Positions 21,645 through 63,490 of a DNA stretch of 64,000 nucleotides are shown here, piece by piece. Made by a program: the position numbers and the translations under genes. The notes below the pieces were generated by a model. That model was not told the origin of the DNA, ran no database searches, and worked only from the letters and a program-made list of their open reading frames with translations. Location of the stretch: the NCBI RefSeq assembly GCF_036345915.1, contig NZ_CP107785.1:3224001-3288000 (forward strand), read 5' to 3'. Source of the DNA: Nocardia sp. NBC_00565. Its GTDB lineage: Bacteria > Actinomycetota > Actinomycetes > Mycobacteriales > Mycobacteriaceae. Within the stretch, counting starts at the first letter, position 1. Every line of letters starts with the position of its first letter.

Positions 21645-22019
21645 GTGCACGAAATGGCGATTACCCAGAGTGTCATCGACGCCGTGTGTGGGCACGCGGC
21701 GGGTCGAACGGTGCACAGCGTCACCGTTGCGGTCGGCGCGCTCTGTGCGGTGGTTCCGGACGCGATGCAGTTCTGCTTCGAGCTCGCGGCCGAAGGCACG
21801 GTCGCGGAGGGGGCGCGGCTCGAGATCGAGCAAGTACCGGGCCGGGCGATCTGCCGGTCCTGCGGCGCGGACTTCACGCTGACCGACCTGATTGTCTTGT
21901 GTCACTGCGGCAGCGCCGACGTCGATGTGATTTCCGGGCGGGAACTTCGAATCCGGTCGATGGAAGTGAGCGAAGTATGTGCGCAACCTGTGGATGTGGT
22001 AACGACACAGCAGCCGTGA
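21645..22019 (+). CDS. hypA: Hydrogenase nickel incorporation protein HypA
   Basis: The 124-residue metallochaperone delivers Ni2+ to the hydrogenase large subunit together with HypB. The start is GTG 21645, giving the N-terminus (M)HEMAITQSVIDAV, in which His2 and Glu3 bind nickel. GAGG at 21636-21639 supports this start. The zinc site is formed by CRSC and CHC with a trailing GS (residues about 69-90), slightly altered from the usual CPxC second pair. Its 3' end overlaps hypB by 43 bases. Confidence 0.93.
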   Translation: MHEMAITQSVIDAVCGHAAGRTVHSVTVAVGALCAVVPDAMQFCFELAAEGTVAEGARLEIEQVPGRAICRSCGADFTLTDLIVLCHCGSADVDVISGRELRIRSMEVSEVCAQPVDVVTTQQP

Positions 22020-22801
22020 TCACGGTCCCGCACGATCACGCCGACGGTCACGATCACGAGCACGGCGACGGTCACGCACATGATCACGGCGCCGATCATG
22101 TGCACCTGCCGGTGACCGAGACGATCACCCTCGAGCAGAAGATCCTGGCGAAGAACGACCTGTTGGCAAACCACAATCGCGAATGGCTCGAACAACGGAA
22201 TATCGTGGCGTTCAACATGACCAGCTCGCCGGGCGCGGGCAAGACAACGCTGCTCGAGCGCACCATCAGCGAGCTGGGTGATGTGCCGATCGCCGTCATC
22301 GAGGGCGACCAGGAGACGCTGTTGGATGCCGAGCGGATCAAGGCGACCGGCTGCGCCGTGGTGCAGATCAACACCGGCGCCGGTTGTCACCTGGACGCCG
22401 ACATGCTGCGCCACGCGTGCGATGCCTTGGCGCCCGCACCGGGCACCGTGTTGTTCATCGAAAATGTCGGCAACCTGGTCTGCCCCGCGCTGTTCGATCT
22501 GGGGGAACGCAGCAAGGTCGTGATCATCTCGGTGACCGAGGGGACCGACAAACCACTGAAGTACCCACACATGTTCGCGGCCGCGGGGCTCGTCATTGTC
22601 AATAAGACCGATCTGCTGCCCTATGTCGACTTCGACGTGGACGAATTCCGCGAATACGCCCGCTCGATCAACCCCGGCGTCGAGATACTGCCGATGTCGG
22701 TGACCACCGGCGACGGCATGGCGCATTGGTATCACTGGCTTGCGAAGGAGCGTGGCGCCGTCGCGTCTGCCAGTCTTGATCATGTTGTCGGGCAAGCCTA
22801 A
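21977..22801 (+). CDS. hypB: Hydrogenase nickel incorporation GTPase HypB
   Basis: The 274-residue GTPase starts MCATCGCG, the high-affinity nickel motif CxxCGC. A His/Asp-rich stretch (about residues 19-42) that can store nickel comes next. The P-loop is TSSPGAGKTTLLER, Switch residues include EGDQET, the metal-binding CHLDADM follows, and the guanine motif is NKTD. It dimerises with GTP and passes nickel to HypA. The start ATG 21977 lies inside hypA, indicating coupling. It ends 89 bases before hhyS, leaving room for a promoter with a Crp-type site. Confidence 0.95.
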   Translation: MCATCGCGNDTAAVITVPHDHADGHDHEHGDGHAHDHGADHVHLPVTETITLEQKILAKNDLLANHNREWLEQRNIVAFNMTSSPGAGKTTLLERTISELGDVPIAVIEGDQETLLDAERIKATGCAVVQINTGAGCHLDADMLRHACDALAPAPGTVLFIENVGNLVCPALFDLGERSKVVIISVTEGTDKPLKYPHMFAAAGLVIVNKTDLLPYVDFDVDEFREYARSINPGVEILPMSVTTGDGMAHWYHWLAKERGAVASASLDHVVGQA

Positions 22802-22806
22802 ACTCG

Positions 22807-22822
22807 TGTGATCAGGGTCACA
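22807..22822 (+). promoter_or_regulatory. Perfect Crp-type palindrome upstream of hydrogenase genes
   Basis: TGTGATCAGGGTCACA is an exact TGTGA-N6-TCACA site, the consensus for Crp-family proteins including actinobacterial cAMP-Crp. It starts five bases after the hypB stop and is centred about 75 bases before the hhyS start at 22890. A second, longer inverted repeat (GGTGACG at 22827-22833 and CGTCACC at 22854-22860) follows. The same site recurs at the cox operon. Confidence 0.75.
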
Positions 22823-22889
22823 TGCAGGTGACGTTCTTCAAATTGGGCGAGACCGTCACCAGGTGTCCGGACTCCGGAAGGTGGCTTTT

Positions 22890-23945
22890 GTGCCAACTCA
22901 GGAAGCAGTCCGTGCCGAAGAAACGTTGATCCATGTCTTGTGGATCAATGCCGGCCTCGGTTGTGACGGTGACTCGGTGGCTCTGACTGCGGCCACTCAG
23001 CCGAGTATCGAAGAAATCGCACTAGGGGCACTCCCCGGCTTGCCGAAGATCGCGGTCCATTGGCCGCTCATCGATTTCGAATGCGGCCCGACCGGTGGTG
23101 CCGATGACTTCCTCGAATGGTTCTTCAAAGCGGATCGCGGCGAATTGGAACCGTTCGTGCTGGTCGTGGAAGGTTCGATACCGAACGAGCGACTGCACGA
23201 AGAAGGCTATTGGTGCGGGTTCGGCAATAACCCCGCCACCGGTCAGCCGATGACGACCAGTGAATGGCTCGACCGCCTCACACCCAAGGCGACCGCTGTT
23301 GTCGCGGTCGGCACCTGTGCCACCTACGGCGGCATCCACGCGATGGCAGGCAACCCGACGGGCGCCATGGGCGTGCCGGACTATCTCGGCTGGGACTGGA
23401 AGAGCAAGGCGGATATCCCGATCGTCTGCGTTCCCGGTTGCCCGATCCAGCCGGACAACCTGTCGGAGACACTGACGTACCTGCTCTACATGGCGACCGG
23501 CCAGGCGCCGATGATCCCGCTCGACGAAGCGTTGCGCCCGAAATGGCTGTTCGGCGCCACTGTGCACGAGGGCTGTGACCGGGCGGGCTACTACGAGCAG
23601 GGCGACTTCGCCACGGAGTACGGTTCGCCGAAATGCATTGTGAAACTGGGATGTTGGGGCCCGGTAGTCAAATGTAATGTACCCAAACGCGGTTGGATCA
23701 ACGGCGTCGGCGGCTGCCCGAACGTGGGTGGCATCTGCATCGGCTGCACCATGCCCGGTTTCCCCGACAAGTTCATGCCGTTCATGGACGAGCCACCAGG
23801 CGGGAAGCTCTCCTCCACCGCATCAGGGCTCTACGGGTCGGTGATTCGCAGCTTGCGTCACATCACCGGCAACACACTCGACAAAGAACCCCGCTGGCGA
23901 CACAAGGGGCAGAAGCTGGAATCCGGCGCGTCGCGCACCTGGTAG
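22890..23945 (+). CDS. hhyS: [NiFe]-hydrogenase group 1h small subunit
   Basis: The 351-residue subunit holds three iron-sulfur clusters that carry electrons from the NiFe site. Cluster ligands are visible in INAGLGCDGDS, GTCATYGG, CVPGCPIQPDN, HEGCDRAGYY, CIVKLGCWGPVVKC and CPNVGGICIGC. The first motif has Asp where standard hydrogenases have the second Cys (CTGC). This is the mark of O2-tolerant actinobacterial (group 1h, formerly 5) enzymes whose proximal cluster has three Cys and one Asp. No Tat signal is present, so the enzyme stays cytoplasmic. GTG 22890 is chosen with GGAAGG at 22876-22881. GTG 22863 and 22881 are alternatives. hhyL follows after 11 bases. Confidence 0.95.
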   Translation: MPTQEAVRAEETLIHVLWINAGLGCDGDSVALTAATQPSIEEIALGALPGLPKIAVHWPLIDFECGPTGGADDFLEWFFKADRGELEPFVLVVEGSIPNERLHEEGYWCGFGNNPATGQPMTTSEWLDRLTPKATAVVAVGTCATYGGIHAMAGNPTGAMGVPDYLGWDWKSKADIPIVCVPGCPIQPDNLSETLTYLLYMATGQAPMIPLDEALRPKWLFGATVHEGCDRAGYYEQGDFATEYGSPKCIVKLGCWGPVVKCNVPKRGWINGVGGCPNVGGICIGCTMPGFPDKFMPFMDEPPGGKLSSTASGLYGSVIRSLRHITGNTLDKEPRWRHKGQKLESGASRTW

Positions 23946-23956
23946 GAGAATCTTCG

Positions 23957-25753
23957 ATGACACAGATTATCCCGGAGCCGTCGCACCGAAAGATCGATCC
24001 CGACAGTCTCGTCGAAATGGCGTGGGATCCGATCACCCGAATCGTCGGCAGCCTAGGCATCTACACCAAAATAGATTTCGAGAATCGTGAGGTGGTCGAG
24101 TGTCACAGCACCTCGTCCATCTTCCGCGGATACTCGATCTTCATGCGCGGCAAGGATCCTCGTGACGCGCACTTCATCACCAGCCGCATCTGCGGAATCT
24201 GCGGCGACAATCACGCCACCTGCTCCTGCTATTGCCAGAATATGGCGTACGGAGTGAAGCCGCCGAACCTCGGCGAGTGGATCGTCAATCTCGGCGAGGC
24301 CGCCGAGTACATGTTCGATCACAATATTTTCCAGGAGAACCTCGTCGGCGTGGACTTCTGCGAAAAGATGGTCGCCGAAACCAATCCCGGCGTGCTGGCG
24401 GTGGCGGAGACGACACTGTCACCACATTCCGGCGAACACGGTTATCGGACCATCGCCGATATCATGCGGGCCCTCAACCCGTTCACCGGCGATTTCTATC
24501 GCGAGGCGCTTCAGGTCAGCCGCTACACCCGCGAGATGTTCTGCCTTATGGAGGGCAGGCACGTGCATCCGTCGACGCTGTATCCCGGCGGTGTCGGCAC
24601 GGTCGCGACGATTCAGCTGATGACCGACTACATGTCTCGGCTGATGCGCTACGTCGAGTTCATGAAGAAGGTCGTGCCGATGCACGACGATCTGTTCGAC
24701 TTCTTCTACGAGGCACTGCCCGGCTACGACCAGGTGGGCCTGCGTCGCACGCTGCTCGGCTGCTGGGGTTCGTTCCAGGATCCCGAGGTGTGCAACTTCG
24801 ACTACAAGGACATGGAGGCGTGGGGCCGCAAGATGTTCGTCAGCCCGGGCATCGTGGTCGACGGCAAGCTGATCACCACCTCCTTGATCGACATCAACCT
24901 CGGCATCCGAATCCTCTTGGGCAGTTCGTATTACGACGACTGGACCGATCAGGAGATGTTCGTGAACACCGACCCGCTCGGTAATCCGATCGATCGTCGC
25001 CACCCGTGGAACCAGCACACCAATCCCAAGCCGCAGAAGCGCGATATGGACGACAAGTACAGCTGGGTGATGTCACCTCGTTGGTTCAACGGCACCGAAC
25101 ATCTCGCGCTCGACACCGGCGGCGGGCCGCTGGCCCGGCTGTGGGTGACGGCGCTGGCCGGCCTTGTCGACAACGGCTATGTGAAGTCGACGGGGCACAG
25201 CGTCCAGATCAACCTGCCGAAGACCGCGCTCAAAGGCCCGGTGACCTTCGAATGGAAGATCCCCGCCTACGGCAGCAACACCATCGAACGCAACCGCGCC
25301 CGCACCTACTTCCAGGCCTACGCGGCGGCGAGCGCGCTGCACTTCGCCGAGCAGGCTTTGGTGGAGATTCGCGCGGGCCGCACCAAGACCTGGGAGAAGT
25401 TCGAGGTGCCCGACGAGAGTATCGGCTGCGGCTTCACCGAGGCTGTGCGTGGTGTGCTGTCGCACCACATGGTCATCCGGGACGGCAAGATCGCGAACTA
25501 CCACCCGTATCCGCCGACGCCGTGGAACGCCAACCCCCGTGACAGCTTCGGCACGCCCGGCCCCTATGAGGATGCGGTGCAGGGGCAACCGATCTTCGAG
25601 GAGAACGATCGGGAGCATTTCAAGGGCATCGACATCATGCGTACCGTGCGCAGTTTCGATCCGTGCCTGCCGTGCGGTGTGCACATGTATCTCGGCAACG
25701 GAAAGACGCTGGAGAAGCTGCACTCCCCGACACAAACGCTCACCGCTGAGTGA
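23957..25753 (+). CDS. hhyL: [NiFe]-hydrogenase group 1h large subunit
   Basis: The 598-residue catalytic subunit oxidises H2 at the Ni-Fe(CN)2CO centre. The L1 motif RICGICGDNHATC (about residues 78-90) and the L2 motif DPCLPCGVH near the C-terminus supply the four Ni-binding cysteines. The peptide after the L2 His should be removed by the protease encoded at 29538-30014. The match to group 1h enzymes, which scavenge atmospheric H2 in soil actinobacteria during starvation, is close along the whole length. It is co-transcribed with hhyS and the downstream electron carrier. Confidence 0.96.
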   Translation: MTQIIPEPSHRKIDPDSLVEMAWDPITRIVGSLGIYTKIDFENREVVECHSTSSIFRGYSIFMRGKDPRDAHFITSRICGICGDNHATCSCYCQNMAYGVKPPNLGEWIVNLGEAAEYMFDHNIFQENLVGVDFCEKMVAETNPGVLAVAETTLSPHSGEHGYRTIADIMRALNPFTGDFYREALQVSRYTREMFCLMEGRHVHPSTLYPGGVGTVATIQLMTDYMSRLMRYVEFMKKVVPMHDDLFDFFYEALPGYDQVGLRRTLLGCWGSFQDPEVCNFDYKDMEAWGRKMFVSPGIVVDGKLITTSLIDINLGIRILLGSSYYDDWTDQEMFVNTDPLGNPIDRRHPWNQHTNPKPQKRDMDDKYSWVMSPRWFNGTEHLALDTGGGPLARLWVTALAGLVDNGYVKSTGHSVQINLPKTALKGPVTFEWKIPAYGSNTIERNRARTYFQAYAAASALHFAEQALVEIRAGRTKTWEKFEVPDESIGCGFTEAVRGVLSHHMVIRDGKIANYHPYPPTPWNANPRDSFGTPGPYEDAVQGQPIFEENDREHFKGIDIMRTVRSFDPCLPCGVHMYLGNGKTLEKLHSPTQTLTAE

Positions 25754-26720: not shown

Positions 26721-27352
26721 CGACACCGTTCCATGTACTGCAGCGCATCACCGCCGATCGGAGACCGGCAGTGCGGGCGGGCGAGCGGTGTGAAATGTGC
26801 GCCGAACCGATCGCCGATGTCCATCAGCACGTGGTGGATATCGAAGGCAGACAATTGATGTGCGTCTGCCGAGGCTGCTACCTGCTGTTCACAGATCGCA
26901 ACGCCGCGCTGCGGTACCGGGCGGTGCCCGACCGCTATCTGTTCTTCCCCGACTTCACCATCAGCCAGGGTGAGTGGGACGGGCTAGAGATCCCGGTCGG
27001 CCTGGCATTCTTCTTCCGCAATTCCGCGCTCGGCAAGACCGTCGCGTTCTATCCGGGTCCGGCCGGAGCGACGGAATCGGAACTGCCGCTGGAACAGTGG
27101 CGCTCGGTGCTGGAGCGACATCCGGAACTCGACGTGCTCGCCGCCGATGTCGAAGCATTACTGATTCGCGTGCCCGAGCGCGGCACCACCGACGCCGTAT
27201 GCCTGCTGCTGCCGATCGATGCGTGCTACGAATTCGTCGGCCGGATGCGGATGCTGTGGCGCGGTTTCGACGGCGGCCAGGATGTTCGCCGCTATATGGA
27301 CGAATTCTTCACCGAGATGTCGGCCCGTGCCCGGCCAGGTGGCGCGCGATGA
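26717..27352 (+). CDS. Hydrogenase-associated conserved protein (DUF5947-like)
   Basis: The 211-residue product contains RCEMCAEPIADVHQHVVD and MCVCRGCYLLFT near the N-terminus. Together they offer a four-Cys metal site (CxxC ... CxC/CxxC). The rest is mixed alpha/beta with FPDFTISQGEWDGLEIPVG. I recall the family as DUF5947, seen almost only beside group 1h hydrogenases. The GTG start at 26717 overlaps the upstream stop, and the 3' end overlaps the next start. A zinc- or Fe-S-linked assembly or electron-transfer function is possible; none is known to me. Confidence 0.75.
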   Translation: MTTPFHVLQRITADRRPAVRAGERCEMCAEPIADVHQHVVDIEGRQLMCVCRGCYLLFTDRNAALRYRAVPDRYLFFPDFTISQGEWDGLEIPVGLAFFFRNSALGKTVAFYPGPAGATESELPLEQWRSVLERHPELDVLAADVEALLIRVPERGTTDAVCLLLPIDACYEFVGRMRMLWRGFDGGQDVRRYMDEFFTEMSARARPGGAR

Positions 27353-27999
27353 GCCCCGTCTACTCGACGACCTTCGCCGTCCTCGAGATGAAGCCGGAGC
27401 CCTACGCGGTGGCACCGACCCTGTCCGCGCGCATCGGCATCGCCTCGCTGGGCGAGGACCCGGTGCACGCGATCGCACTGCGCGCGCAGGTGCGCATCGA
27501 GCCGTACCGGCGTGCCTATACCGACGAGGAGAGCGCAGGCCTTGTCGATCTGTTCGGTCCACGTGAGCGGTGGCAGGACACGCAGCGGTCGTTTCTCTGG
27601 ATGCATTGCACCACCATGATTCCCGGGTTCAACGGCGGCACCGAGGTGGACCTGCCGATGCCGTGCACCTACGACTTCGAGGTGACCGGGTCCAAGTATC
27701 TGCACGCGCTGCGCGGCGGGACCGTGCCGTTGATCTTCCTGTTCAGTGGCACCGTTTTCATCAAGGGCCAGACCGGTTTCGCGATCCAGCAGATCCCATG
27801 GGACCGCGAAGACAAGTTCGATATGCCGGTGTCGGTCTGGCACGACCTCGTGGCCGCGCACTTTCCGAACTCCGGCTGGGTGCGCTTGAGCAAGGACACC
27901 CTCGACGCGCTGGCCGCGTATAAGTCCGGCCACGGCATGCTCGGCTTCGACGACGCGGTCACACACCTGCTGGCTTCCTCGAACGAGGAGATCCCATGA
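27349..27999 (+). CDS. Hydrogenase-associated conserved protein (DUF6084-like)
   Basis: The 216-residue protein has no Cys motif or membrane segment and is rich in aromatic beta-strand-like stretches such as FLWMHCTTMIPGFNGGTEVD and GTVPLIFLFSGTVFIKG. I recall it as the DUF6084 family, which travels with group 1h hydrogenase genes. It is coupled to both neighbours by four-base overlaps. Constant linkage suggests a structural or assembly role for the hydrogenase complex, but that is inference. Confidence 0.75.
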   Translation: MSPVYSTTFAVLEMKPEPYAVAPTLSARIGIASLGEDPVHAIALRAQVRIEPYRRAYTDEESAGLVDLFGPRERWQDTQRSFLWMHCTTMIPGFNGGTEVDLPMPCTYDFEVTGSKYLHALRGGTVPLIFLFSGTVFIKGQTGFAIQQIPWDREDKFDMPVSVWHDLVAAHFPNSGWVRLSKDTLDALAAYKSGHGMLGFDDAVTHLLASSNEEIP

Positions 28000-57452: not shown

Positions 57453-59843
57453 TCAGATAGGCGGTGTGGCCCGGCCCTGCATCGCTTCCCACACCCGCGA
57501 CGGCGTCAGCGGCATGTCGGCGTGCCGGACTCCGAACGGCGCCAACGCATCCACCACCGCGTTGACCACCGCTGCCGGCGATCCGACCGTGGCCGATTCG
57601 CCGATGCCTTTCGCACCGATCGGGTGGTGTGGCGAAGGGGTGACCGTGTACCCGGTCTCGAGATGCGGAACCTCGAGCGCAGTCGGGATGAGGTAGTCCA
57701 TCAGGGATCCGCTGAGGCAGTTGCCGTCCTCGTCGAAGGCCATGATCTCCATCAGCGCCATGCCGATGCCGTCGGTGATGCCGCCGTGCACCTGCCCCTC
57801 GATGATCATCGGATTGATCCGGGTGCCGCAGTCGTCGACAGCGAGGAAGCGCCGCACCTTCACCACGGCTGTCCCCGGGTCGATGTCGACGACGCAGAAG
57901 TACGAACCATACGGGTAGGTGAGATTCTCCGGGTTGTAGCAGATCTGCGCGTCGAGTCCGCCCTCGATGCCCTCGGGCAGATCACCGGCGCCGTGTGCTC
58001 GCATCGCGATCTGCTGGATCGTCACGGCCGCGGACGGATCGCCCTTGACGTGGAACGAGCCCTTCTCCCATTCGAGGTCGGCGACCGAGACCTCGAGCAT
58101 GCCGGAGGCGATGATCCGCGCCTTGTCGCGCACCTTCCGCGCCACCAGTGCGGCAGCGGCGCCAGAGACCGGTGTCGACCGGCTGCCGTAGGTGCCCAGG
58201 CCGAACGGAGTCTGATCGGTATCGCCGTGCACCACGTCGATGTCGTCGGGCGGGATGCCGAGTTCTTCGGCGACGATCTGGGCGAACGTCGTCTCGTGCC
58301 CCTGCCCCTGGGTCTGAACCGATATGCGCACAACGGCTTTGCCGGTTGGATGGATGCGCAGCTCGCACCCGTCGGCCATCCCGAGTCCGAGGATGTCCAT
58401 ATCCTTGCGCGGACCCGCGCCGACGGCCTCGGTGAAGAAGGACATCCCAATGCCCATCAACTCGCCGCGAGTGCGCTTGTCCTGCTGCTCCTTTCGCAAA
58501 GCGTCGTAGCCGATCATGTCCATCGCCAGGCGCATAGTCTTCTCGTAGTCACCGGAGTCGTAGACCCAGCCGGTCTTGCTGGTGTACGGAAACTGATCGG
58601 GGCGAAGGAGATTCCGCAGCCGCAGCTCGGCCGGATCCATCTTCAGTTCGTAGGCGAGGCAATCCACCAACCGCTCGACGAAGTAGACGGCCTCGGTGAT
58701 CCGGAACGAGCACGCGTAGGCGACGCCGCCAGGGGCCTTGTTCGTGTAGACCGCGGTCATCTTGCAGTAGGCGGCCTCGATGTCGTAGCTACCGGTGAAG
58801 ACGCCGAAGAAGCCGGCCGGATACTTCAACGGCGCCGCCGTGCCGTTGAAGGCGCCGTGATCGGCGAGCACGGTCGACCGGATGGCCAGGATCTTGCCGT
58901 CGGCGGTGGCGGCGATCTCGCCGACCATGATGTAGTCGCGGGCGAATCCGGTGCTGGTGAGGTTTTCGCTGCGATCCTCCATCCACTTCACCGGTTTGCC
59001 CAGCAACAGCGACCCGACGATGGCGCAGACGTATCCCGGATAGATGGGCACCTTGTTGCCGAACCCGCCGCCGATATCGGGTGAGATCACCCGGATCTTG
59101 TGCTCGGGCAGTCCGGCCACCAATGCGTAGAGCGTGCGGTGGGCATGCGGCGCCTGGCTCGTCGACCACAGCGTGAGCTTCCCGGTCACCGGATCGAGAT
59201 CCGCGACGGCACCGCAGGTCTCCATCGGGGCGGGATGCACTCGCGGATAGACGATCTCCTGCTCGACTATGACGTCGGCGCGCGCGAACACCGCCTCGGT
59301 CGCGGCGGCGTCGCCGGTCTCCCAGTCGAAGCAGTGGTTGTCCTTCTTACCCTCGAGATCGTCGCGGATCACCGGCATCTCGGGCGCCAGAGCGGTCCGG
59401 GCGTCGATCACCGGATCGAGCATCTCGTACTCGACGTTGATGAGCTCCAACGCATCACGCGCGGAGTAGCGATCCTCGGCGACGACGAAGGCCACCTCCT
59501 GGCCCTGGAATCGGACCTTATCCGTCGCCAGCACCGCCTGCACATCGTTGGAGAGCGTCGGCATCCAGGCCAGTCCCTTCGCCGCCAGATCCGCACCCGT
59601 GACAACCGCCTTGACCTTCGGATGTGCCTGTGCCGCAGAGATATCGACGCTCACGATCCGCGCGTGCGCGAACGGGGAACGCAGGATCGCCATATGCAGC
59701 ATGCCGGGCAGCGACACGTCGTCGACGTAATTGCCGCGCCCGCGAATGAACCGCGGATCCTCCTTGCGCAGCATCCTGCCGTGACCGCACGGCTTGTGGT
59801 CGTTGTCGACACGGTCTTCGGGCCGGGACTCGACGGCGGTCAT
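57453..59843 (-). CDS. coxL: Form I CO dehydrogenase large subunit
   Basis: The 796-residue molybdo-copper subunit oxidises CO to CO2. The active-site loop is VAYACSFR, the AYxCSFR motif of true (form I) enzymes whose Cys binds Cu. GGGFGNKVP, QTQGQGHETTFAQIVAEELG and the final GAKGIGESATVG, with the catalytic Glu, are also intact. Form II (aldehyde-oxidase-like) enzymes have a different loop, so CO is the likely substrate. ATG 59843 overlaps coxS by four bases; a longer frame upstream is the shadow of coxS. Confidence 0.96.
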   Translation of the reverse strand: MTAVESRPEDRVDNDHKPCGHGRMLRKEDPRFIRGRGNYVDDVSLPGMLHMAILRSPFAHARIVSVDISAAQAHPKVKAVVTGADLAAKGLAWMPTLSNDVQAVLATDKVRFQGQEVAFVVAEDRYSARDALELINVEYEMLDPVIDARTALAPEMPVIRDDLEGKKDNHCFDWETGDAAATEAVFARADVIVEQEIVYPRVHPAPMETCGAVADLDPVTGKLTLWSTSQAPHAHRTLYALVAGLPEHKIRVISPDIGGGFGNKVPIYPGYVCAIVGSLLLGKPVKWMEDRSENLTSTGFARDYIMVGEIAATADGKILAIRSTVLADHGAFNGTAAPLKYPAGFFGVFTGSYDIEAAYCKMTAVYTNKAPGGVAYACSFRITEAVYFVERLVDCLAYELKMDPAELRLRNLLRPDQFPYTSKTGWVYDSGDYEKTMRLAMDMIGYDALRKEQQDKRTRGELMGIGMSFFTEAVGAGPRKDMDILGLGMADGCELRIHPTGKAVVRISVQTQGQGHETTFAQIVAEELGIPPDDIDVVHGDTDQTPFGLGTYGSRSTPVSGAAAALVARKVRDKARIIASGMLEVSVADLEWEKGSFHVKGDPSAAVTIQQIAMRAHGAGDLPEGIEGGLDAQICYNPENLTYPYGSYFCVVDIDPGTAVVKVRRFLAVDDCGTRINPMIIEGQVHGGITDGIGMALMEIMAFDEDGNCLSGSLMDYLIPTALEVPHLETGYTVTPSPHHPIGAKGIGESATVGSPAAVVNAVVDALAPFGVRHADMPLTPSRVWEAMQGRATPPI

Positions 59844-60358
59844 GACGCGCTCCCGACCGGCGTTGGCGTGGCGGCGGGTTCGGGCTCCACCGCTTCGCCT
59901 CGTTGCTTCGCCGCGGCCCACTGGATCGACCGCACGATGGTGGTATATCCGGTGCAGCGGCAGATCTGGCCCGAGATCGCCTCCCGGATGGTCTGCTCGT
60001 CGGGATTCGGGTTGCGGTCGAGCAGGGCGCGGGCGGTGATCAGCATTCCGGGCGTGCAGAATCCGCACTGCAACCCGTGACACTGCATGAACCCCTCCTG
60101 CACGGGATCGAGTTGGCCGTCCACCTCGAGCCCCTCGACGGTGCGCACCGAACGTCCGCCGGCCATGACGGCCAGCATCGTGCACGACTTCACCGGTTCG
60201 CCGTCGACCTCCACCACACAGGTGCCGCAGTTGCTGGTGTCACAGCCCCAGTGAGTTCCGGTGAGCCGCAACTGATCTCGCAGGAAATGCACGAGCAGGG
60301 TGCGTGGCTCGACCTCCGCTGTCACCGGCTCGCCATTGACGGTCATGGTTACCTGCAT
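59840..60358 (-). CDS. coxS: CO dehydrogenase small subunit (2Fe-2S)
   Basis: The 172-residue subunit binds two [2Fe-2S] clusters, one plant-type (GCDTSNCGTCVV, with the last Cys in KSCTML) and one with C-x2-C-x31-C-x-C (QCGFCTPGM and ICRCTGY). It moves electrons from the Mo-Cu centre to the FAD of CoxM. It follows coxM after two bases. Confidence 0.95.
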   Translation of the reverse strand: MQVTMTVNGEPVTAEVEPRTLLVHFLRDQLRLTGTHWGCDTSNCGTCVVEVDGEPVKSCTMLAVMAGGRSVRTVEGLEVDGQLDPVQEGFMQCHGLQCGFCTPGMLITARALLDRNPNPDEQTIREAISGQICRCTGYTTIVRSIQWAAAKQRGEAVEPEPAATPTPVGSAS

Positions 60359-60360
60359 GG

Positions 60361-61251
60361 CTAATTCCCTTCCAGCACAGGATCATTCAGTACGCGCTCG
60401 ACCGCGGTGCGCAGCACGCGAATCGTCAGTTCGGACGCGAGATGGCGCTTGTAGTCCGCGCTGCCGCGCGCATCGGAGGCAGGTGAGCACGCCGCGCTCG
60501 CCCGGCGGCCCGCCTCCGAGAAGACCTCCTCGGTGGGCGGCTCACCGAGCAGCACGTCGACCGAGGAAGCGATCGCCGCTGGATCGGGGTTGACTGCCGT
60601 CAGACCGATCCGCGCGGCCGCGATCGTGCCGCCGTGCAGTGTCACCGTTGCGCCGGCCGCCGCGATCGCCCAGTCGCCGACCCGGCGCTCCACCTTCGCG
60701 TAGGCGCTCGATGTCCGATGCCGCACGGGAATTCGGATCTCGATCAGAAGTTCGTTGTGCGACATGGCGGTTTCGTACGGACCGATCAGGAAGTCGTCCA
60801 TCGCGATCTCCCGGTCGCCGGACGGTCCGCGTACCAGGCAGGTGGCGCCGAGGACCGTGCAGACGGTGCTGAGATCTTCGGCGGGATCGGCCTGGCATAG
60901 CGAGCCGCCGATCGTGCCGCGGTTGCGCACAACCGGATCAGCGATCACCCGCTCAGCGTCGCGGAAGATCGGGCACACCGCGGCGAGATCATCGGACTCG
61001 AGCATATGCCGATGCCGGACCATCGCACCGATTCGCACCAGGGTCGGATCGGTGACGATGTAACCCAGTTCGGCAGCCAGGTCGTTGATGTCGATGAGAT
61101 ATTCCGGATTGGCCAGACGCAGCTTCATCATCGGCAGCAGGCTGTGCCCGCCCGCGACGATGCGCGCCTCCTCCCCCAGCCGGTCCAGTAGTCCGATGGC
61201 GTGATCCACGCCCGTTGCGCGCTCGTATTCGAATGGCCCAGGAACTTGCAT
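60361..61251 (-). CDS. coxM: CO dehydrogenase medium subunit (FAD)
   Basis: The 296-residue flavin subunit has the FAD motifs VAGGHSLLPMMKLRLANP (residues 33-50) and RNRGTIGGSLCQADPAEDL (about 110-128). It passes electrons to the quinone pool. It is first of the structural genes; the family N-terminus MQVPGPFEYERA confirms ATG 61251. Its Shine-Dalgarno region (GAGGT) lies inside the Crp-type palindrome at 61251-61266. Confidence 0.95.
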   Translation of the reverse strand: MQVPGPFEYERATGVDHAIGLLDRLGEEARIVAGGHSLLPMMKLRLANPEYLIDINDLAAELGYIVTDPTLVRIGAMVRHRHMLESDDLAAVCPIFRDAERVIADPVVRNRGTIGGSLCQADPAEDLSTVCTVLGATCLVRGPSGDREIAMDDFLIGPYETAMSHNELLIEIRIPVRHRTSSAYAKVERRVGDWAIAAAGATVTLHGGTIAAARIGLTAVNPDPAAIASSVDVLLGEPPTEEVFSEAGRRASAACSPASDARGSADYKRHLASELTIRVLRTAVERVLNDPVLEGN

Positions 61252-61266
61252 GTGATCTACCTCACA
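61251..61266 (-). promoter_or_regulatory. Perfect Crp-type palindrome over the coxM start
   Basis: TGTGATCTACCTCACA is an exact TGTGA-N6-TCACA site. Its left end is the first base of the coxM start codon on -, and it covers the ribosome-binding region. It shares TGTGATC and TCACA with the site at 22807-22822. Bound there, a regulator would block transcription or, on RNA, nothing; activation would need a promoter further downstream or an unusual arrangement. Confidence 0.7.
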
Positions 61267-61308
61267 TCAATGGGAACAAGCTCAGCCTCTGCCCCACCGA
61301 TGCAGTCG

Positions 61309-62469
61309 TCAAGACCGAGTTAAGGAATCACTTAATTCGCTGTTCACGCCCGGTGTGTGGTGAATCCGGCCGCCGGTTTGGGCCAGTGCGAGGCCGTGTC
61401 CGCCCCAGCGTCGCGCAATGATCTCGGCCGCGATGGACACCGCCGTCTCTTCCGGTGTCCGACCGCCCAGATCGAGCCCGATCGGGCTGGAAAGTCGGGC
61501 GAGTTGCTCGGCGGTGAGGCCGGCCTGTCGCAGCCGGGTCAGCCGCTCGTCGTGCGTGCGGCGCGACCCCATGGCGCCGACATAGCCGATCTCCGGCGCG
61601 CGCAGTGCCACCTCGAGCAGCGGAACGTCGAACTTGGGATCGTGGGTCAGCACGCAGACCACGGTCCGCGAATCGACCGCGCCGGCCGCGATCTGTGCGG
61701 CCAGATAACGGTGCGGCCAGTCGACCACGACCTCATCGGCGGTCGGGAACCGGGCGGAGGTGGCGAAGACCGGCCGCGCGTCGCATACCGTCACCCGGTA
61801 CCCGAGGAACGATCCCTGCTGGGCGACGGCGGCGGCGAAATCGATCGCCCCGAACACCAGCATCCGTGGCTGTCGCGCATAACTGGCGACGAAAACCGCC
61901 ATACCCTCGCCGCGGCGCTGCCCGTCCGGACCGTAGGACAGCACCTCGCTGCGGCCCGTCGCGAGCAGCCCGCCTGCGTCATCGATCACCGCATCGTCGG
62001 CGCGCGCCGACCCCAGCGTGCCGTGTGCACTGCTCGGCCGGATCAGCAGCCGCCTCCCGACAAGGGCGGAGTCGGGGTGCTCGATGACGGTCGCGATCGC
62101 GACCGGCCGGTGCTCGGCGATATCCACGGCGACCTCGCCAAGTTCCGGAAACGTCTCCCGCGAGATCGCCTCGACGAAGATGTCGATGATGCCGCCGCAG
62201 GTGAGACCGACGGCGAATGCGTCGTCGTCGGAGAAGCCGTACCGCTGCAGCACCGGACGACCGGTCCGGACGACGTCGGTGGCGAGTTCGTAGACCGCGC
62301 CCTCGACGCAGCCGCCGGAGACCGAACCGCCGACCGTTCCGTCCGGGGCGACGACCATGGCCGCACCAGGCGGTCGCGGCGATGAATGGAACGTCCGCAC
62401 GACCGTTGCGACCCCAGCCGTGCCCCCGGCGTTCCAGGTTGTCATCAGATCCGTGAGCACATCCTGCAT
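61309..62469 (-). CDS. xdhC: XdhC-family Mo-cofactor maturation protein
   Basis: The 386-residue product has the XdhC pattern: GGSVSGGCVEGAVYEL, LTCGGIIDIFVE, Rossmann part MLVFGAIDFAAAVA, VCVLTHDPKFDVPLLEVAL, EIGYVGAMGSRRTHDERL and PIGLDLGGRTPEETAVSIAA. It binds and protects sulfurated Mo cofactor before insertion. It lies on the same strand as coxM and ends 57 bases before it. ATG 62469 is preceded by GGAGG with seven bases spacing. Two XdhC proteins in one region (see 56534) probably act in successive steps or on different enzymes. Confidence 0.9.
   Translation of the reverse strand: MQDVLTDLMTTWNAGGTAGVATVVRTFHSSPRPPGAAMVVAPDGTVGGSVSGGCVEGAVYELATDVVRTGRPVLQRYGFSDDDAFAVGLTCGGIIDIFVEAISRETFPELGEVAVDIAEHRPVAIATVIEHPDSALVGRRLLIRPSSAHGTLGSARADDAVIDDAGGLLATGRSEVLSYGPDGQRRGEGMAVFVASYARQPRMLVFGAIDFAAAVAQQGSFLGYRVTVCDARPVFATSARFPTADEVVVDWPHRYLAAQIAAGAVDSRTVVCVLTHDPKFDVPLLEVALRAPEIGYVGAMGSRRTHDERLTRLRQAGLTAEQLARLSSPIGLDLGGRTPEETAVSIAAEIIARRWGGHGLALAQTGGRIHHTPGVNSELSDSLTRS
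61320..61335. promoter_or_regulatory. Palindrome TTAAG-N6-CTTAA near the cox promoter
   Basis: TTAAG (61320-61324) and CTTAA (61331-61335) flank six bases. It lies within the last codons of xdhC, about 70 bases upstream of coxM. Position and symmetry would suit an operator, for example for the LysR protein. Confidence 0.3.
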
Positions 62470-62533
62470 GATGTGTCCTCCAGGCACGATGCGACTGTCG
62501 GCGCTACATCCACCTCCAAAGTAGACTCGAATT

Positions 62534-63490
62534 GTGACGCCCGCCCAGCTTCGGGCCTACTCGACCGTGGTGCGGCTCGGCTCCGTCCATGCGGCGGCCA
62601 GAGAGCTGGGGATGTCCGACGCCGGTGTCTCGACGCACATCGCCCAGCTGCGTAAAGAGCTCGACGACCCGCTGTTCACCCGCACGGCGGCGGGTCTGGC
62701 CTTCACGCCCGGTGGGCTGCGCCTGGCCAGCCGGGCGATCGAGATTCTCGGACTGCAGCGCCAGACCGCCATCGAGGTGAGCGAGGCGGCGCACGGCCGA
62801 CGGCTGCTCCGCATCGCGGCATCGAGTGTGTTCGCCGAACATGCCGCGCCCGGCCTCATCGACCTGTTCGCGGCGCGGGCAAAGGATCTGTCGGTCGAGC
62901 TGAGTGTGCATCCCACCAGCCAATTCCGCAGTCTGATCGAGACCCGCGCGGTGGACATCGCGCTGGGGCCCGGGCCGAATGGCACCGACACGACCATCAG
63001 CGCCCGGCCGTTCCTGAAGTATCAGGTCATTTCGGTCGCGCGCCCCGACAGCCCGCTGGCGGATGTCGCACCGCATCCGGCGCTGCTGCGGGAGCAGCAG
63101 TGGATGTTGGGCCCCAGCGCCGGCAGTGTCGACGGGCACATCGCGACGATACTGCGCGAGTTGGCCATTCCCGAATCACATCAGCGGATCTTCCAGAGCG
63201 ACGCCGCCGCCCTCGAAGAGGTCCGCCGGGTCGGGGGCATCACCCTGACGATCGGCTTCGCCGTCTCCGCCGACCTCGCGACCGGTCGGTTGAGCCACAT
63301 CAAGGGACCCGGCCTTCAGGCATCCGATGAGTGGTGCGCGACCACCCTGCCACCCGACACCCGCCAGCCCGCGGTGTCGGAACTGCTGCGGTTCATCACG
63401 ACCCCGCGATGCATCCAGGCGATGATCCGCGGGTCCGGCGTCGGCGTCACTCGGTTCCGCCCGAAAGTGCATGTGACGTTGTGGAGTTGA
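62534..63490 (+). CDS. LysR-family regulator, CutR-like
   Basis: The 318-residue product has an N-terminal winged helix (TPAQLRAYSTVVRLGSVHAA, then GMSDAGVSTHIAQLRKELDD and LFTRTAAGLAFTPGG) and a C-terminal periplasmic-binding-type effector domain. It is divergent from xdhC with only 64 bases between starts. In Mycobacterium sp. JC1, CutR, a LysR protein, is required for CO dehydrogenase expression and is encoded next to the structural genes, so this is the probable CO-operon activator. The start is GTG 62534. Confidence 0.85.
   Translation: MTPAQLRAYSTVVRLGSVHAAARELGMSDAGVSTHIAQLRKELDDPLFTRTAAGLAFTPGGLRLASRAIEILGLQRQTAIEVSEAAHGRRLLRIAASSVFAEHAAPGLIDLFAARAKDLSVELSVHPTSQFRSLIETRAVDIALGPGPNGTDTTISARPFLKYQVISVARPDSPLADVAPHPALLREQQWMLGPSAGSVDGHIATILRELAIPESHQRIFQSDAAALEEVRRVGGITLTIGFAVSADLATGRLSHIKGPGLQASDEWCATTLPPDTRQPAVSELLRFITTPRCIQAMIRGSGVGVTRFRPKVHVTLWS

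Follow-up and report, generated by a model that had tools for sequence, protein, structure and literature searches.

Two perfect TGTGA-N6-TCACA palindromes, TGTGATCAGGGTCACA in the gap between hypB and hhyS and TGTGATCTACCTCACA at coxM, occur in the window, i.e. the whole 64,000-nucleotide stretch of the Nocardia sp. NBC_00565 genome analysed here (3,224,001-3,288,000 of the contig). Most likely, the two sites are real and conserved operators of the Crp type, with a predicted repressing role. We hold it probable, as a joint claim, that both would be recognized by the organism's own Crp, of the GlxR/Rv3676 type, and that both are placed to repress. If Crp does repress, simple catabolite repression would tie the uptake of atmospheric H2 to organic-carbon status, with a sign opposite to that of enteric activation. 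The features concerned are listed in Table 1.

Table 1. Genes, predicted promoter elements and operators of the hydrogenase and cox regions (positions in the window).
Feature	Position	Strand	Basis or remark
hypB (predicted start)	22016..22801	+	PF02492 CobW/HypB/UreG in longer ORF 21686-22801; start from own caller
Predicted -35 box TTGATC, hhyS promoter	22776..22781	+	inside hypB 3' end; sequence
hypB stop TAA	22799-22801	+	overlaps hhyS -10 box
Predicted -10 box TAAACT, hhyS promoter	22799..22804	+	sequence and relatives; begins with hypB stop codon
Crp-type operator TGTGATCAGGGTCACA (predicted)	22807..22822	+	centred ~+4.5 from predicted start
Predicted hhyS transcription start	~22811	+	7 nt past -10 box, within palindrome
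Shine-Dalgarno (SD) GGAAGG of hhyS	22876..22881	+	sequence
hhyS, small subunit, group 1h type [NiFe] hydrogenase	22890..23945	+	PF14720/PF01058 in ORF 22863-23945
hhyL, large subunit	23957..25753	+	PF00374
coxL	57453..59843	-	domains in longer ORF 57453-60185; start by position
coxS	59840..60358	-	PF01799, PF00111
coxM	60361..61251	-	PF00941, PF03450
Crp-type operator TGTGAGGTAGATCACA (predicted)	61251..61266	-	abuts coxM ATG; contains SD GAGG 61260-61263
Predicted coxM transcription start	~61277	-	inferred
Predicted weak -10 box GAGGCT, coxM promoter	61284..61289	-	sequence, inferred
Predicted -35 box TTGACG, coxM promoter	61307..61312	-	sequence
XdhC/CoxI-like gene, adjacent to coxM on its upstream side (corresponds in position to orf13 of JC1)	61309..62487	-	PF13478, PF02625
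CutR site, IR1-like, TTAAGTGATTCCTTAA	61320..61335	-	TTAAG-n6-CTTAA form as in IR1 of Mycobacterium JC1 (PMC12609908, excerpt)
cutR orthologue (LysR type), divergent	62534..63490	+	PF00126, PF03466

The initial annotation had reported a perfect 16-mer at each of these two places and had argued that such matches are rare by chance; both statements are borne out. No perfect match other than these two palindromes, with all 10 consensus bases each, occurs in the window, and none of 100 dinucleotide shuffles of the window contained any. In the window, no match with one mismatch was found, and at up to two mismatches nine matches were counted, fewer than in the shuffles (mean 17.6). Thus, the signal is confined to the perfect sites and weaker ones carry none. 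The whole-genome scan that had been proposed as a check (single contig, 9,711,624 bases) yielded 20 perfect sites, whereas the reversed pattern occurred once. Two of the 20 lie wholly within called genes and two further ones touch a gene edge, while called genes make up 79% of the 20 site loci (binomial P ~8e-11 for an intergenic bias, with gene calls from our own crude codon-usage caller). At the genome's own density of sites, the presence of two within one 64-kb window has a Poisson P of ~0.008. Proteins from 10 of the 20 site loci, one from each, were scanned for families, and two had none. Other perfect palindromes of the genome (at 1501-1516 of loci L197, L011, L008 and L199) are located near a gene for a resuscitation-promoting factor (L197), an MspA porin (L011), a sulfate permease and a sugar-type transporter. 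Rpf genes are a classical Crp target in mycobacteria.

The best solved relative of HhyS is the small subunit of entry 5aa5 (3.4e-165, versus 1e-26 for the huc-type entry 7utd), which we take to be a group 1h [NiFe] hydrogenase. The start codon of hhyS is most likely the GTG at 22890, judging from the SD sequence ahead of it, instead of the codon at 22863. A DUF6084 protein is encoded at 26974-27999, within the hydrogenase gene cluster. A leaderless or small upstream ORF starting from TCACATG at 22822 (35 codons, delimited by eye) was considered and rejected, its ATG being absent from most of the relatives compared. It had also been proposed that the palindrome splits hypAB from the structural operon. 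This idea stands in part: a conserved promoter motif is found between hypB and hhyS, so that the structural genes can be transcribed separately from hypAB, but read-through from hypAB may occur as well.

The arrangement upstream of hhyS is strongly conserved in Nocardia, where 45 loci gave 40 distinct upstream sequences. The layout is TTGA-N17-TA[GA]nnT, then a gap of 2-3 nt and the palindrome. In 39 of the 40 sequences, TTGA precedes a TAnnnT box at a distance of 17 or 18 nt, and the palindrome lies 2-3 nt past the -10 box in 36 (one of them with 7/10 consensus bases). At least 8 of the 10 consensus bases are present in 38/40 upstreams, with the 2-3 nt spacing in 35 of those 38, and all 10 bases in 12/40. 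From single-base shuffles, the chance of finding at least 8 bases in 15 start positions is 0.0035 per upstream.

At the level of the family, 86 sampled genomes carry hhyS, of which 75 + 5 regions were used and six were left out (G104, G248, G068, G097, G115, G084). Together with named records, the Mycobacteriaceae samples gave 166 upstream sequences, 163 of them distinct, and a site was counted when at least 8 of the 10 consensus bases matched. Both a site and a promoter call were obtained for 71 of the 163; the other 92, many of them from Mycobacterium, have no site. Relative to the predicted starts, 62/71 sites are centred between +1.5 and +16.5, and 57 of these 62 cover the start, while five (centre +9.5 or more) lie just downstream of it, inside the first 24 transcribed bases. 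Eight sites are centred between -16.5 and -33.5, in the spacer or on the -35 box, and one (L269, with a weak promoter call) is found at -51.5, an activating distance. In four loci with displaced sites (L024, L131, L212, L236), the scored promoter is a poor match. Most Mycobacterium hhyS upstreams sampled are devoid of a site. In a few, it sits on the -35 box (TGTGATTGACAACACA; L125, L133, L149) or in the spacer (L131), positions that, from the sequence, would also be suited to block the promoter. A Nocardioides metagenome-assembled genome (L104) and a Streptomyces record (L124) contain a close hhyS (90-91%) with a Crp-like site directly past the promoter; this might reflect either gene transfer together with the promoter or, for the MAG, misbinning.

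Regarding the cox operon, the CoxL translation contains AYACSFR, in agreement with AYXCSFR, the active-site motif of form I CO dehydrogenases. In the window, the palindrome and the coxM ATG share one base, the A with which the former ends and the latter begins. The conservation of this position was examined in 64 coxM upstreams (64 listed genomes, minus G248, whose match had no gene start, plus G009). A site is present in 50/64 and begins exactly at -15/-16 of the ATG in 47/64; in 33 of these 47 the palindrome ends on the first base of the ATG, and a GAGG or GGGG, the likely SD sequence, is included in 46. Three further sites are at -33/-34. No site was found in the remaining 14/64, and the relatives that lack the palindrome have other leader sequences. 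The order-level cox relatives L044-L048 also show no site at the ATG. TTGAC occurs upstream of coxM in 42/64 cases overall and in 41/47 of those with an abutting site, and the TTAA repeat of the IR1 form is found at coxM in the three Nocardia and in several Mycobacterium. A 12-mer shared by both sites of the window, TCACATGCARGT, was tried as an extended motif and discarded, being conserved on the cox side only. The initial annotation had placed this second site at the first structural gene of its operon. It does abut the coxM ATG; however, it is located not ahead of the predicted promoter but downstream of it, and it contains the SD sequence.

A closely similar organization has been described for the cutB (coxM) promoter of Mycobacterium sp. 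JC1 (PMC12609908). According to excerpts of that study, the end of the orf13-like gene, a TTAAG-n6-CTTAA repeat and a CRP palindrome that extends into the start codon follow each other in the same order; the reverse primer, complemented by hand, reads GTGAGGATGATCACATGCAA and shows the palindrome reaching the start codon. A CutR orthologue is encoded nearby in JC1 as in the window, where its best solved relative (2e-145) is 9vvu, an entry code given for JC1 CutR in the same source. Given this shared layout and the CutR orthologue close by, the cox part of the present arrangement, CutR IR1 plus CRP site, is already known in kind. The excerpts speak of catabolite repression and of the CRP motif being absent in some mycobacteria (PMC12609908). 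The present case differs in concerning a Nocardia and in that the abutting position was counted across relatives. For the hhyS half, no precedent was seen in the open-licence literature searched, and no Crp-mutant data for hhy or cox were found in that literature.

What may be said of the sign of regulation? The initial annotation had supposed that Crp turns on both operons. The positions of the sites point the other way: as the hhyS site lies over the predicted start and the cox site downstream of the predicted promoter, on the SD sequence and the start codon, repression is predicted at both. The centres near -41.5, -61.5 or further upstream that go with class I or II activation are found neither at hhyS, apart from the one site at -51.5, nor at coxM, and the placement on the core promoter or start that goes with a repressor is seen for 65/71 hhyS sites, plus the five directly downstream (all with respect to predicted starts). 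Shared repression of hhySL and coxMSL by Crp, with both sites placed to block transcription, is thus the reading we regard as rather likely. At hhyS, Crp bound over ~-4 to +12 would either exclude RNA polymerase from the sigmaA-like promoter or trap it there, the end of the -10 box being separated from the palindrome by 2 nt. At coxM, where the promoter would be CutR-dependent, Crp would sit downstream of it (centre ~+19), forming a road-block and masking both the SD sequence and the start codon. During carbon-rich growth, active Crp would keep hhySL and coxMSL low; in carbon-poor conditions, a drop in active Crp would release both operons and hence the oxidation of H2 and CO.

Several published observations favour such a scheme. 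In excerpted reports on M. tuberculosis, Crp (Rv3676) sites near transcription starts, with the same TGTGAN6TCACA palindrome and clustered from +1 to +20, are associated with repression (PMC4117774; the rule is restated in PMC4218801); those sites were measured by ChIP and RNA-seq (PMC4117774), whereas position and conservation are used here. The CO dehydrogenase of Mycobacterium JC1 is described as glucose-repressed, an effect attributed to CRP (PMC12609908, excerpt), and in C. glutamicum, contrary to E. coli, cAMP levels on glucose are reported to exceed those on acetate (PMC4254451, excerpt). Taken together, these three cases favour a situation in which, on rich carbon, Crp is bound and H2/CO oxidation is off. 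Other observations count against repression. The effect of cAMP on mycobacterial Crp binding is stated to be small, ~2-fold (PMC4218801, excerpt). The M. smegmatis huc hydrogenase (group 2a) is also a trace-gas enzyme under carbon control, but its promoter was not bound by Crp1 or Crp2 in the excerpted account, and the same 2026 paper calls the regulators of huc unresolved (PMC13098282). Huc is, however, a different hydrogenase, and the group 1h hhyS of Nocardia has a predicted site whereas most sampled Mycobacterium hhyS do not. Finally, the -10 box of cox is weak, 92/163 hhyS and 14/64 coxM upstreams have no site, and three coxM sites stand at -33/-34.

The enteric-style alternative, in which cAMP-Crp would activate both operons in starvation, can invoke the presence of the same palindrome at both operons. 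It can also invoke the Crp-activated genes of M. smegmatis, ahpC with a site centred at -81.5 (PMC4218801) and cydAB (PMC7739888), as well as C. glutamicum GlxR, an activator in most cases (PMC4254451), all as given in excerpts and all counting against repression. Nevertheless, among the 71 hhyS sites there is none with its centre at -41.5 or -61.5 of the predicted start, 70/71 fall on the core promoter, on the start or within the first 24 nt of the predicted transcript, and the coxM site abuts the ATG in 47/64 relatives, so activation appears unlikely. Which protein would read the sites is a separate matter. The genome encodes a Crp orthologue (L181) whose alignment to M. tuberculosis Crp (structure 3h3u, 4.7e-133) spans 223 residues and whose recognition stretch, GASRETVNKALADFAHRGW, is identical to that of Rv3676; five class III cyclase matches are also present. 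A second strong HTH_Crp_2 protein is encoded as well, the paralogue L182 (G000:C1:1723857), with an RE pair in its helix region GASREAVSKAL, and such a recognition helix makes it a possible reader of the same palindromes. Were this or another Crp/Fnr-family protein the actual regulator, the signal would not be cAMP. Against this, it is an Rv3676-type protein that binds TGTGA-N6-TCACA in mycobacteria (PMC4218801, PMC4117774, excerpts), and the L181 stretch is that of Rv3676; we therefore judge a reader other than this Crp improbable.

It could also be imagined that the palindromes work as RNA hairpins of the 5' leaders, by sequestering the coxM SD sequence and as part of the hya RNA at hhyS (see below), and not as DNA operators. 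The 9-nt overlap of non-Nocardia hhyS sites with the hya RNA goes in this direction, as do the SD sequence contained in most coxM palindromes and the five of 23 imperfect abutting coxM sites that retain all five arm pairs. However, at least one arm pair is broken in the other 18 of the 23, which is the pattern expected of a DNA site and not of a stem, and Nocardia keeps the hhyS site with no detectable hya RNA. A hairpin function in place of an operator is thus very improbable. Still less credence can be given to a chance palindrome, or to a by-product of the SD sequence and start codon on one side and of the hypB end on the other. Part of the coxM left arm (GAGG) does double as SD sequence and there is no excess in the window at up to two mismatches. 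Opposed to this are the absence of perfect palindromes from all 100 shuffles, the 20 genomic sites versus 1, the fixed spacing in relatives and the distinct leaders of those coxM relatives that lack the palindrome.

Whether H2 and CO oxidation are coupled through these sites may be considered on the basis of gene content. The idea of one regulator for both operons fits the finding of the same perfect site at both, its conservation at the same places in relatives and the encoded Crp orthologue; it is the "turning on" that does not fit. In this genome, a common H2/CO switch may thus exist, as far as the sites themselves suggest. As the reason for which the hhyS site exists, however, joint control is not supported. 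Among 24 Nocardia genomes with hhyS in two samples, some of them incomplete assemblies, a close coxM was found in only three (G000, G009, G275). Both sites occur in each of these three, but 38/40 distinct Nocardia upstreams retain the hhyS site, mostly where cox is lacking. Conversely, there are genera that retain the cox site although most or all of their hhyS upstreams have none (19/21 without in g44, all 3 without in g32 and g41). The two patterns together argue that there is no conserved pairing of H2 and CO control.

An additional layer is found in the hhyS 5' leader of relatives, where the hya RNA (Rfam RF02992) was detected in 67 of 301 sampled family genomes, 60 of them above the gathering score. 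The matches are spread over 14 of 31 genera, and none of the 67 is from Nocardia. In all 22 non-Nocardia genomes compared, the operator (at least 8 bases, beside the -10 box) overlaps the 5' end of the RNA by exactly 9 nt, as exemplified by L114:2928-2999 and L129:2926-2996. The closing stem of the RNA covaries: in a 36-sequence alignment, two or more sequences show a change on both sides for every one of its 7 pairs, while two of the 7 are also disrupted by mispairs or gaps, in 8 and 4 sequences respectively. Nine of the 36 rows carry the operator, with TCAC in the 5' strand of the stem in eight and TCAT in the ninth; none of the 27 other rows has TCAC. Because TCAC is confined to operator rows, the operator seems to fix the sequence of the closing stem, the partner strand following suit with a compensating GTGA.

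The situation is different in Nocardia and in Mycobacterium. No hya RNA was found at 22000-23500 of the window with E up to 5, nor in the genome under strict filters. Our own model of the RNA (R1, built from the 36 sequences) was applied to 19 non-Nocardia leaders chosen among those without a regular-expression match, i.e. harder cases; it gave 42-67 bits in 15, 33-35 bits in two (L223, L269), 12.8 bits in L218 and no match in L250. In the window it reached 5.6 bits (E 0.14) at 22825-22882. This segment has a weak hya-like fold, with a GGTGACG/CGTCACC stem followed by a CCGGA hairpin at the SD sequence, and is perhaps the remnant of a lost hya RNA. Eight other Nocardia leaders (L201-L208) do not exceed 11.8 bits with the same model. 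A hya RNA in Nocardia was hence not retained, with possible remnants as the alternative description of these matches. Of 13 hhyS-bearing Mycobacterium (g50), 10 have a hya match and three a Crp-like site of at least 8 bases, none of these beside the -10 box.

It may tentatively be proposed, though we place this somewhat short of an even chance, that one 9-nt stretch of the hhyS leader is read twice, as DNA in the right part of the Crp operator and as RNA in the 5' strand of the hya closing stem. Crp would then gate transcription start exactly where a candidate riboswitch has its first bases, Nocardia having kept the operator without the RNA and Mycobacterium the RNA mostly without the operator. 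Such an overlap would add a case of two regulatory layers with common bases. In the open-licence literature, no paper was found on "hya RNA" together with hydrogenase and riboswitch. Three hya matches (G142:C1:2948207, G162:C25:420876 and G175:C18:408851) belong to genomes in which hhyS was not matched at E values of 1e-100 or below; there, the RNA might precede another gene, or the hydrogenase might have been lost or have diverged.
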